8,957 nucleotides of DNA from Candidatus Zhuqueibacterota bacterium (GTDB lineage: Bacteria; SM23-31). The notes under the pieces are model-generated. The model had not been told where the DNA came from and made no database searches. It saw only the letters and a program-made list of their open reading frames with translations. Below are positions 3,882 through 8,838 of the stretch, piece after piece. The DNA lies in NCBI GenBank assembly GCA_022562855.1, contig JADFON010000048.1, positions 1 to 8,957 on the forward strand. Reading direction: 5' to 3'. The position numbers and the translations under genes were made by a program. Numbering within the stretch: position 1 is the first letter of the stretch; the number at the start of each line of letters is the position of its first letter.

Positions 3882-3907
3882 ATCATCGTTTGTCGTCCAA
3901 ACAAAAA

Positions 3908-3936
3908 AGTATATTAAAAATAAATGATTTTATCAA
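3908..3936 (-). promoter_or_regulatory. Near-consensus sigma-70-like promoter of guaB3
   Basis: Reading leftward, TTGATA (3931-3936) and TATACT (3908-3913) are separated by exactly 17 bases; each hexamer differs from consensus at one position. Transcription would start near 3901 and give a leader of about 35 bases that includes the Shine-Dalgarno at 3874-3881. No riboswitch-sized structure fits in this short leader. Confidence 0.7.
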
Positions 3937-3975
3937 TAGATTTGTGATATAATTGAATTCCTTTAATATATTTTT

Positions 3976-4075
3976 TGACACAGATTCTCACAGATTTCTT
4001 GTGATTCTCACGGACAAAATCTTTTTGTTGAAGAATTCTGTGTTTATCATATTAAATCAGCGTCCCTCAGTGTCT
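3976..4075. repeat. ACAGATT-type interspersed repeat-like element
   Basis: The stretch contains GATTCTCAC twice with a 20-base period (3983-3991, 4003-4011) and a TCACA/TGTGA hairpin (3988-3992 with 4000-4004). ACACAGATTCT (3978-3988) is nearly inverted as AGAATTCTGTGT (4032-4043). It ends in ATCAGCGTCCCTCAGTGTCT (4056-4075). This texture resembles non-coding interspersed elements built of CACAGATT/CAGTGTCT words that recur in many bacterial genomes. Only one copy lies in this window, so calling it a genome-wide repeat is inference. Confidence 0.45.
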
Positions 4076-4121
4076 AACGTTTTATCCGGAGTTTAATCTT
4101 CGTGTGGTTGTTGTTTGCCTC

Positions 4122-4176
4122 GTAAGGGCGGTTCGCGAACCGCCCCTACCGATGTTCTGTGACGAACCGCCCCTAC
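4122..4176. repeat. GC-rich palindromic repeat with an additional half copy
   Basis: Positions 4122-4149 form a 28-base palindrome around GGTTCGCGAACC with a single mismatched pair (A4125 against C4146). Its right half, CGAACCGCCCCTAC (4136-4149), is repeated exactly at 4163-4176. Palindromes with this core occur as dispersed intergenic repeats in many bacteria, from family knowledge. The tandem arrangement of a full and a half copy suggests a REP/BIME-like mobile repeat. No T run follows, so a terminator role is not favoured. Confidence 0.7.
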
Positions 4177-4235
4177 TTGTCCCAGTTTTCCGGATTATCT
4201 TCATCAAGCTGCCATTGAGCAACTCTTTCTATCGG
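4173..4235 (-). pseudogene. Possible C-terminal coding relic on the minus strand
   Basis: On the minus strand 20 codons read PIERVAQWQL then DEDNPENWDK and end in a TAG supplied by the edge of the GC-rich repeat half copy. The W/D/N-rich composition looks more coding than random, but the frame is closed just upstream by TAA (4236-4238) and there is no start codon or ribosome-binding site. It may be the tail of a lost gene cut by a rearrangement or by the repeat. An open run of this length can also occur by chance, so this is a weak call. Confidence 0.2.
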
Positions 4236-4293
4236 TTATAGAGTTTACAAATCAGCAGTGGAAAATCCGATAAAATCGTTAAGATATGAATAG
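4219..4293 (+). pseudogene. Relic of an FtsX/MacB-type permease C-terminus
   Basis: After a TGA (4216-4218) the plus strand encodes 24 residues ending GYRVYKSAVENPIKSLRYE and a TAG stop. This aligns without gaps to the last 24 residues of the intact permease in this window (SYQSLKAGLANPVNSIRAD at its end). Tyr, Lys, the Asn-Pro pair, Ser and Arg are identical, with hydrophobic positions conserved between them. A tail of the form NP-V/I-x-S-L/I-R is characteristic of this permease class. No other part of the gene remains upstream: the preceding bases show no membrane-helix frame and run into repeat DNA. I interpret it as the last remnant of a deleted permease gene, probably a paralog rather than a copy, because the residues differ. 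Confidence 0.6.
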
Positions 4294-4801: not shown

Positions 4802-6385
4802 ATGAAAACCAAAAAATCATTTGATGACCTTGGACTTTCAGCAAAGGCGCTGGATGCAATTAATAGTAAGGGTTTTGAGGTGCCGACTGAAATTCAGATC
4901 ATGACTATACCTTTGATGCTGAGGGATGATACGAATATTATCGCTCAAGCTCAAACAGGAACGGGGAAAACGGCGGCATTTGGATTGCCATTGATCGAGT
5001 TGATCGATACAGGTACTAAATCCGTTCAGGCGATAATTCTGGTCCCGACACGCGAGTTAGCGATCCAGGTTTCAGAAGAGATCAGCTCTCTCAAAGTAGA
5101 TAAGAATTTGAAGATCATACCGATATATGGCGGTCAATCTATTGACCAGCAGTTACGAAAATTGAAAAAAGGTGTGCATATTGTTGTTGGAACCCCGGGA
5201 AGAGTAATCGATCATCTTAAGAGAAAAACTCTGAAACTTCACGATATTGAGCATTTGATACTTGATGAGGCGGACGAAATGCTCAATATGGGGTTCATCG
5301 ATGACATAGAAAAAATAATGAAGCATACAAATCCTGATAAAAGAACGCTGTTGTTTTCCGCGACATTACCGGGGAGGATAAAGCAGCTTGCCCGCAAATA
5401 CATGGATGATTATGAACTTCTTGTAGTAAAAAATGAGCCGATCACTACTAACCTGACGGATCAAATATACTTTGAGGTAAAGGCTTCTGATAAATTTGAG
5501 GCGCTGTGCAGGATCATCGATATTGAAAATGAGTTTTACAGCTTGGTTTTTTGCAGAACAAAAAAAGATGTCGATCAGGTTTCTACTCGTTTGTCAAACA
5601 GAGGATATGACGCAGATTGTATTCATGGAGGTCTGACACAAGCGCAAAGAGAAAAAACGCTTGAAAAATTTAAGAAAAAAAGGGTGACTATTCTTGTAGC
5701 AACAGATGTTGCAGCCCGCGGAATCGATGTTGTTGATCTCACCCACGTTATAAACTATTCGCTCCCTCATGACCCGGAAGCGTACATTCACCGCATAGGC
5801 AGAACGGGAAGAGCAGGCAAAGAAGGGACTGCCATTACTTTTATCACTCCTGAAGAATACAGGCAATTGATGCACATTAAAAAAGTTATAAAAACCGATA
5901 TACGAAAGGAAAAACTGCCGAAGAGTGATGAAATATTGAACGCAAAAAAATATAAAGTAATGGACAACATAAATAAATTGGTCAGTGAAGATGTCCCTGA
6001 CGAATTTTACCAAATGGCAAAGGATATTTTGACAGACAATAAACCAAAGCAAGCTTTAGCTGCGATCCTCCACTACGCGTTTCACGAAGAACTGGGACAA
6101 AAATATTACAACGAAATACGTGATGTACATCCCCATATATCAGGAAAAACCCGTTTGTTTGTCTCCAAGGGGAAAAAACATAATATGACGAAGAGAAAAC
6201 TGGTGGAATTCATTATAAGGAAAGCAAATACTGATGAAAGAAAGATCGATGATGTCCAGGTTTTTGATACCTTCTCTTTTATAACCGTTCCGTTCACGGA
6301 AGCGGAGGTCATTCTGAAATGTTTCAAAAAGTCAAAAAAGGGTGACCGGTCTGTAGTTGAAAGAGCAAAGAAGGAAAAAAAGTGA
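4802..6385 (+). CDS. DEAD-box ATP-dependent RNA helicase with DbpA/CsdA-type RNA-binding domain
   Basis: The 527-residue protein carries the full DEAD-box set: the Q motif (Phe7 and GFEVPTEIQ, Q32), Walker A AQTGTGKT (50-57), PTRELA (82-87), GG (110-111), TPGR (131-134), DEAD (155-158), SAT (186-188), SLVFCRT (247-253), ATDVAARGID (300-309) and HRIGRTGR (330-337). A helical linker follows. Residues about 449-509 (TRLFVSKGKKHNMTKRKLVEF... through ILKCFKK) match the RRM-like RNA-binding fold of DbpA/CsdA, and the end is a basic tail. Such proteins unwind short RNA duplexes with ATP and act in ribosome assembly, cold adaptation or mRNA turnover. The length is between DbpA (about 457) and E. coli CsdA/DeaD (about 629), so I give no firm gene name. 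All catalytic residues are intact. The gene converges on the permease with 59 bases between stops and no clear terminator. Confidence 0.95.
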   Translation: MKTKKSFDDLGLSAKALDAINSKGFEVPTEIQIMTIPLMLRDDTNIIAQAQTGTGKTAAFGLPLIELIDTGTKSVQAIILVPTRELAIQVSEEISSLKVDKNLKIIPIYGGQSIDQQLRKLKKGVHIVVGTPGRVIDHLKRKTLKLHDIEHLILDEADEMLNMGFIDDIEKIMKHTNPDKRTLLFSATLPGRIKQLARKYMDDYELLVVKNEPITTNLTDQIYFEVKASDKFEALCRIIDIENEFYSLVFCRTKKDVDQVSTRLSNRGYDADCIHGGLTQAQREKTLEKFKKKRVTILVATDVAARGIDVVDLTHVINYSLPHDPEAYIHRIGRTGRAGKEGTAITFITPEEYRQLMHIKKVIKTDIRKEKLPKSDEILNAKKYKVMDNINKLVSEDVPDEFYQMAKDILTDNKPKQALAAILHYAFHEELGQKYYNEIRDVHPHISGKTRLFVSKGKKHNMTKRKLVEFIIRKANTDERKIDDVQVFDTFSFITVPFTEAEVILKCFKKSKKGDRSVVERAKKEKK

Positions 6386-6444: not shown

Positions 6445-8838
6445 TTAATCCGCCCTGATGGAATTTACGGGATTTGCAAGACCCGCTTTCAAAGACTGAT
6501 AACTGACGGTCGCTATAGCAAGAAAAATTGAGATTGCTCCGGCAACTATAAATGTAAACACTCCGATATTTATCCTATAGGCAAAACTCTGCAGCCAGTC
6601 GCTCATTATGAAAAAGGCTAATATCCAGCCTATCACATTGCCGACAACAACTAACTTTGTAAAATCTTTTATGAGCATTTGAACGATCTGTGAAACCGAA
6701 GAACCCAGTACTTTTCTGATTCCGATCTCTTTTTTCCTTTGCTGTGCGGTAAACGACGCCATCCCGAATAGCCCCAGGCTTGATACAAAAATTGCGATCG
6801 CTGTAAATGCCGTGAATATTCCTTTCAGTCTTTCTTCAAACCTGAATAATTGATCAAACGAATCGTCCACAAAAACATAATCGAACGGCATGGATGGGCT
6901 GAATTTCCGCCAAACGCCCCTGATATAATCTACAGTTTCAGATATGTTTTCGGGTTTTATCCTGACTGAGATCATAGAGAAACTCTGTCCGGACATTTGG
7001 AGAACCATCGGTTTTATAGCCTGATTCATTGATTCATAATGAAAATCTTTTACTACACCGATCACTTTTCCGGGAGTTGTTTCTAACGGTTCTAAGTTTG
7101 TCAACTGGTCAAATTTTTTGTTAAGCGCCGTTTCCCATCCGAGGTCTCTTACAGCCATCTCGTTCAGGATGATCCCTTCAAGAGTATCCGTAGGGAAATC
7201 TCTCGAAAAATTCCTCCCGCCGGTAATTTGCATTCTGTATGTGTCGACAAAATCGTGGTCGATGATCATCCTTGAATAAATCATCAAATCCTTGATCGTC
7301 TTACCCTCCGGTAAAAAGGCATTCGTATCAAAATTACCGAACGGCAGATGACTCGAGGCTGCGGCGCTTATTACGTTGCTGTGCTTCTTTAATTCATTTT
7401 TTATCGTTTCATACTGCAAACTTACCTGCCGCTCTCTCAACCTGAAGGTAAGAATCTGTTCCTTATCAAATCCGAGGTCTTTATTTCTCATGTAGTTTAT
7501 CTGTTCAAATATTATCATCGACCCGATAATAAAAATAACGGACACAGCGAACTGTGATACAACAAGAACATTCCTGATTGCCGAATTCGTTGCCCCGTTT
7601 TTCGAACTGCCTTTCAGTACTATTACCGGGTTGAACGAAGACAGGAAAAACGCGGGATAGCTGCCGGCTGCGAACCCGACAACTACGGTTAAAACCAAAA
7701 GCCCGGCGATCATCACCGGTTCTGTCAAAAATCCCATGTCTAATGTTTTCCCCGATATATCGTTAAAATATGGAAGAAGAAGCTTTATCAGCCCAAAAGA
7801 AACTATCAAAGAAACAAAAGCCAGGAAAACCGATTCGCTTAAAAACTGTTTGATCAATTGGGACTTATATGCACCGGACACCTTGCGCAGCCCGACCTCT
7901 TTGGCGCGGTTCGCCGACCGGGCGGTCGATAGGTTCATAAAGTTTATGCAGGCTATCAGCATCGTAATAAACGCAACCGCGGCAAATATATAGATATAAT
8001 TTATGTTCCCGTTTTGAGCCAGTTCAAATTCGAGATCGGAATACAGATAGATATCGGTCAGCTTTTGGAATCTCAATTCGAAAGTGGCGTTCAATTGCTC
8101 AAGCATTTCACCAATCAAATTATTGATTATTTCGGGTACATCTCTTATCATAACATCGAGGGAAACATTCTCATGCATCAGTAAGTAGGTAGCGTAATTC
8201 AAATTACCGAGCATTAAATTATCGTCGATATTTGTCGACCTGACCGACGCCATCATGTCAAAGATAAAATGGGAGTTTGCGGGCACGTTTTCTATAACCG
8301 CCGTAACGTTGTACGTGGCGTTTCGGTTGGATGTCAGCTCTTTCCCAACCGGGTCTTCATCCGGAAAATATTTGTTTGCCGTTGCTTCGGTCAATACGAT
8401 CGAATTCGGCGCCATCAACGCCGTTTCAGGATTTCCCCTTATAAATTTATGCGAAAATATGTTAAAAAAAGTGGAATCTGCCATAAAAAACCGTTTTTCC
8501 TCAAAGTACCTGTCCTCGTAATTCATGACAGTACTGCCAATCAGGTCGACCCTGGTAAAATTCTCAACCTGTGGAAACTCCCTATGCAGGATCGGTCCGG
8601 TAGCGGGAGAAGATGTGGCAATGTTCAAAGACCTGCTGGGCAGGACTGCGTAGGTATAGACCCGGACTATCCTGTCGGCATTTTCGTGGTACCTGTCGTA
8701 GCTCAACTCGTCTACTATATATAATATGATCAATATCGAACACGCCAGCCCTATGGCAAGCCCGAATATATTGATAAAGGAATACCCGGGATTTCTCAGA
8801 ATAGTACGGTATGCCACCTTGATAAAATTAGCAATCAT
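6445..8838 (-). CDS. ABC transporter permease, FtsX/MacB-like, eight-helix duplicated type
   Basis: The 797-residue protein is a tandem duplication of the MacB core. Predicted helices lie at about 21-43, 281-303, 334-355, 374-396, 422-444, 674-696, 726-745 and 758-780. Two periplasmic MacB_PCD-like domains fall at about 44-280 and 445-673. The paired cytoplasmic coupling motifs RAKEVGLRKVSGA (311-323) and RKKEIGIRKVLGSS (701-714) precede the FtsX helix sets, and the tail ends LANPVNSIRAD. The N-terminus (LRNPGYSFINIFGLAIGLA, 14-32) and DELSYDRYHENADRIVRV (43-60) are typical of FCB-type permeases. MacB-like systems couple cytoplasmic ATP hydrolysis to mechanical work in the periplasm, for export of peptides, lipoproteins or drugs, or in envelope signalling; the substrate here is unknown. 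No partner ATPase gene is visible in the window. The start is supported by AGGA (8846-8849) 7 bases upstream. Confidence 0.93.
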   Translation of the reverse strand: MIANFIKVAYRTILRNPGYSFINIFGLAIGLACSILIILYIVDELSYDRYHENADRIVRVYTYAVLPSRSLNIATSSPATGPILHREFPQVENFTRVDLIGSTVMNYEDRYFEEKRFFMADSTFFNIFSHKFIRGNPETALMAPNSIVLTEATANKYFPDEDPVGKELTSNRNATYNVTAVIENVPANSHFIFDMMASVRSTNIDDNLMLGNLNYATYLLMHENVSLDVMIRDVPEIINNLIGEMLEQLNATFELRFQKLTDIYLYSDLEFELAQNGNINYIYIFAAVAFITMLIACINFMNLSTARSANRAKEVGLRKVSGAYKSQLIKQFLSESVFLAFVSLIVSFGLIKLLLPYFNDISGKTLDMGFLTEPVMIAGLLVLTVVVGFAAGSYPAFFLSSFNPVIVLKGSSKNGATNSAIRNVLVVSQFAVSVIFIIGSMIIFEQINYMRNKDLGFDKEQILTFRLRERQVSLQYETIKNELKKHSNVISAAASSHLPFGNFDTNAFLPEGKTIKDLMIYSRMIIDHDFVDTYRMQITGGRNFSRDFPTDTLEGIILNEMAVRDLGWETALNKKFDQLTNLEPLETTPGKVIGVVKDFHYESMNQAIKPMVLQMSGQSFSMISVRIKPENISETVDYIRGVWRKFSPSMPFDYVFVDDSFDQLFRFEERLKGIFTAFTAIAIFVSSLGLFGMASFTAQQRKKEIGIRKVLGSSVSQIVQMLIKDFTKLVVVGNVIGWILAFFIMSDWLQSFAYRINIGVFTFIVAGAISIFLAIATVSYQSLKAGLANPVNSIRAD

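Follow-up and report, generated by a model that had tools for sequence, protein, structure and literature searches.

REP palindromes that carry a GTAG tag and are tied to RAYTs (REP-associated tyrosine transposases) are known, and some of them overlap the end of the RAYT gene (PMC3733652). We analysed a stretch of 8,957 bp from a Candidatus Zhuqueibacterota bacterium, hereafter called the window, in which palindromes of this kind lie beside two short gene remnants facing away from each other. The locus is best read as ordinary genome decay and not as a working gene. Quite probably it is a rearrangement scar, in which a RAYT gene truncated to its 3' end, together with GTAG REPs, and a similarly truncated FtsX-type permease gene have become joined around position 4218. 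The following features were distinguished:

3972..4085, no strand assigned: left-flank dispersed repeat, about 115 bp long, with copies at 68-76% identity on contigs C121, C387, C166 and C201 of the same genome

4122..4149, minus strand: GTAG-tagged REP palindrome, GTAGGGGCGGTTCGCGAACCGCCCTTAC, with perfect 10-bp arms after the GTAG

4163..4176, minus strand: second, half REP, GTAGGGGCGGTTCG, which repeats an arm of the first REP in direct orientation, overlapping the stop codon of the putative RAYT tail

4173..4217, minus strand: about 14 C-terminal codons and the TAG stop of a putative RAYT-type transposase gene lacking its 5' part, recognised from peptide matches, a tail profile and the placement of the stop within a REP's GTAG tag

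4219..4293, plus strand: C-terminal 24 codons and stop of a predicted FtsX/MacB-type permease gene lacking its 5' part, recognised from tail profiles and matches to the permease C-termini of relatives

The plus-strand remnant translates as ATLSIGYRVYKSAVENPIKSLRYE followed by a stop, and an in-frame TGA lies immediately 5' of it. Searches of this peptide against Pfam and NCBIfam gave no match, and neither the FtsX and MacB_PCD domains nor membrane segments were found in it. As 24 residues are too short for these collections, dedicated profiles of permease C-termini were built. The profile made from four permeases of the window genome scored 20.9 bits (E = 5.4e-6), and a class profile made from a broader permease set, which is mildly biased because its members were partly picked using the relic itself, scored 36.1 bits (E = 1.1e-10). 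The top scores among 300 Markov-simulated windows were 12.8 and 13.9 bits, respectively. The proposal of an earlier note on this DNA, that a second FtsX-type permease has left its C-terminus here as a fossil, with nothing else of it remaining, is thus borne out, and the profile check it suggested for the 24 residues gave scores above background with these tail profiles. Used as a query, the 24-mer had 123 matches in a relative of the same family (G002); nearly all are the ends of open frames of about 800 to 900 codons, and every one in the subset inspected was the C-terminus of an FtsX-type permease.

The alignment of the relic, without gaps, to the very end of the intact permease at 6445-8838, in which Pfam recognises FtsX and MacB_PCD domains, was found as previously described. 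Only 7 of the 24 residues are identical, however, and the relic therefore appears to stem from another paralogue. Nothing convincingly permease was seen in the in-frame sequence 5' of the relic; with a few queries the alignment stretched leftwards to 4186 or beyond, crossing the TGA with one gap and little gain. A weak match of the tail profiles at 3886-3987 on the minus strand was discarded, its scores (8.0 and 11.3 bits) being at background level. On these comparisons, 4219-4293 is taken to be a genuine permease tail, a remnant only and not a permease.

On the minus strand, a 20-codon frame reads PIERVAQWQLDEDNPENWDK, with its stop at 4173-4175, and is open up to 4235. Its recognisable portion, QWQLDEDNPENWDK, covers about 14 codons (4176-4217). 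At E <= 10, the 20-residue peptide had foreign matches in seven genomes, and nine out of ten were to RAYTs or RAYT relics. Among them is a full-length protein of the relative G004, which matched the NCBIfam family REP_Tyr_transpos with E = 8e-21 and 74.5 bits, against a curated cut-off of 80, and gave a weak match to Pfam Y1_Tnp. A RAYT-tail profile scored 16.6 bits on the window peptide, compared to a null maximum of 11.6. RAYT genes in this class terminate in ...NPLKWELDKENPKNW; in several, a GTAG palindrome lies at the end of the tail or at most about 60 nt past it, so that tail, stop and palindrome come in the order found in the window, where the TAG stop sits within a REP's GTAG tag. The minus-strand relic most likely represents a RAYT C-terminus, recognised over about 14 codons. 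It is a remnant and not a transposase: neither the HUH motif nor the catalytic tyrosine was found in it, that part of the gene being absent.

GTAG REPs are palindromes of 20 to 40 bp with GTAG at one end, repeated in the genome, and both properties were found here. Exact copies of the REP core are present on contigs C68 and C254 of the same genome, and further copies in G001, G004 and G005. The GTAG REP pattern has 3 sites in the window genome and about 17 in G004, while the reversed control pattern has none. The region 4120-4178 folds at -17.6 kcal/mol, with a z-score of -5.0 relative to shuffled sequences. We conclude that the GC-rich palindromes are a real pair of GTAG-tagged REPs. They and the opposed relic probably belong together as the remnant of one REP/RAYT element, a connection that the earlier note missed. 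The dispersed repeat of the left flank (TTTTTTGACACAGATT...) is unrelated to the REPs; its diverged copies occur in at least four other contigs of the genome, in both orientations.

The RAYT match extends to 4217 and the permease match sets in at 4219, so that the tails meet head to head, and neither keeps its 5' portion. The opposed 20-codon relic reported previously is indeed present, but it does not overlap the permease tail as had been thought: with its recognisable part at 4176-4217, it abuts it. The loss of 5' parts with tails left beside palindromes holds insofar as both tails are truncated at the 5' end, but a local deletion within an inherited order of genes does not follow from this, since the small gene and the helicase to the right of the junction have no counterparts in the five class relatives.

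This last point emerged from a comparison with relatives. S20 and guaB3 are adjacent in G001, G002, G003 and G005, and the gene next past guaB3 varies between families. The window guaB3 is 76 to 81% identical to the four complete copies of class relatives, and about 72% identical to its best Omnitrophota matches. Inspection of the sequence 5' of guaB3 in each of the five class relatives revealed no permease, permease tail or RAYT tail; a permease between guaB3 and the small gene, which the earlier note had expected, was thus seen in none of the five. It is conceivable that a permease arrived later at the guaB3 site and was then lost. In the same five relatives, the small gene had no counterpart, and the helicase none at E <= 1e-60. 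As the left block is conserved and the right block is not, the junction lies close to the edge between them. The helicase (4802-6385) is a CshA/DbpA-like DEAD-box protein with counterparts in a dozen distant genomes, up to 62% identical, and is possibly a horizontal gain; within the flanks examined there, neither a permease nor the small gene stood beside it. The flanks examined in relatives contained no intact divergent RAYT-permease pair and no permease beside a RAYT.

Three rival explanations were weighed. The minus-strand peptide might be a chance match or a fragment derived from a DUF2723 gene, in which case just the permease tail and REPs would be real. The match is short, and 4177-4207 is 94% identical at the DNA level, over 31 nt, to part of an apparently DUF2723-like gene of G004 (contig C191), which contains the similar motif DENNPENW. 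This gene was dropped as the source in favour of RAYT: it is absent from the peptide matches at E <= 10, where RAYTs dominate, and a REP located at the stop codon matches the arrangement of RAYT genes, which makes a non-RAYT origin unlikely. An assembly artefact, by which the assembler fused two unrelated sequences around 4218 and no cell carries the scar, would agree with the conservation of S20-guaB3 on the left and the absence of small gene and helicase from all five class relatives on the right, and the window genome is a fragmented MAG of 491 contigs. However, the REP lies about 40 bp to the left of the junction, and 4218 itself has no repeat that could cause a false overlap; the tetranucleotide composition and GC content of both halves fall within the range of the genome's own contigs, although this is a weak test, and the permease of the right half has paralogues in the window genome. 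We regard such a join as quite improbable.

Even more doubtful is the insertion of a REP/RAYT 3'-end fragment into a permease gene whose left half was lost later. It would account for the head-to-head abutment without a gap, and G004 is rich in relics of RAYT 3' ends; but no permease sequence was found to the left of the REPs, and the truncation points of RAYT relics differ between loci, so that nothing points to a defined mobile 3' unit. Relatives keep S20-guaB3 with no permease there and lack both the small gene and the helicase; we therefore favour a scar at a decayed REP/RAYT element. Both tail identities, the REPs, a junction at which the tails abut, and relatives lacking this arrangement are observed. 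As to what happened and in which order, we infer that a leftward RAYT 3' end with downstream GTAG REPs would have been joined around 4218 to a rightward permease 3' end. The simplest single event would be a deletion removing the 5' parts of two divergent genes along with the upstream region they shared; about equally likely would be a rearrangement bringing two truncated ends together beside the S20-guaB3 block. The deletion would give this end product, yet other rearrangements would too. Either way both genes would have lost their 5' parts, and neither tail would be expected to function. That the event was mediated by the REPs or catalysed by the RAYT is conjecture.

Remnants of this kind are not unique to the window site: a second 5'-truncated permease tail, of at least 83 codons, lies at 531-782 of contig C93 of the same genome (L171). 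Near it, a minus-strand frame resembles by eye the start of a TilS-type gene. In the 5.3 Mb of G002, about 120 FtsX-type permease tails were counted, many in arrays spaced about 3 kb apart (for example on contigs C56, C30, C231 and C159; loci L030-L058), compared to fewer than 10 in the window genome. Expansions of ADOP permeases are known in Acidobacteria, and the abundance in G002 recalls them. G004 contains many decayed RAYT fragments (loci L212-L215), several of them close to GTAG palindromes, which come in more than one sequence type; this suggests recent REP/RAYT turnover in that genome.

The value of the locus is mainly one of annotation: an odd intergenic stretch is accounted for by fused remnants of a REP/RAYT element and a permease gene, and the class of the window genome is added to the lineages with GTAG REPs. 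If tail-to-REP junctions proved common, RAYT elements would mark breakpoints of genome rearrangement; that RAYT 3' ends and REPs move or recombine as a unit, repeatedly truncating host genes in the class and leaving such scars, seems to us extremely improbable.

With respect to known systems, the plus-strand relic shares with FtsX/MacB-type permeases (nearest NCBIfam families ADOP and DarB) the NP-x-x-S-L-R-Y-E tail at the C-terminus, and ends at the same residue as its intact relatives; unlike them, it retains 24 of some 800 codons, with no membrane segment and no start codon. With the REPtrons, in which a RAYT is combined with REPs (PMC3733652), the window has in common that GC-rich, GTAG-tagged palindromes adjoin a RAYT-type gene and overlap its 3' end. 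It differs from them in that the transposase is reduced to its last codons; with the catalytic domain missing, the REP/RAYT pair of the window is not a working element but what appears to be left of one.
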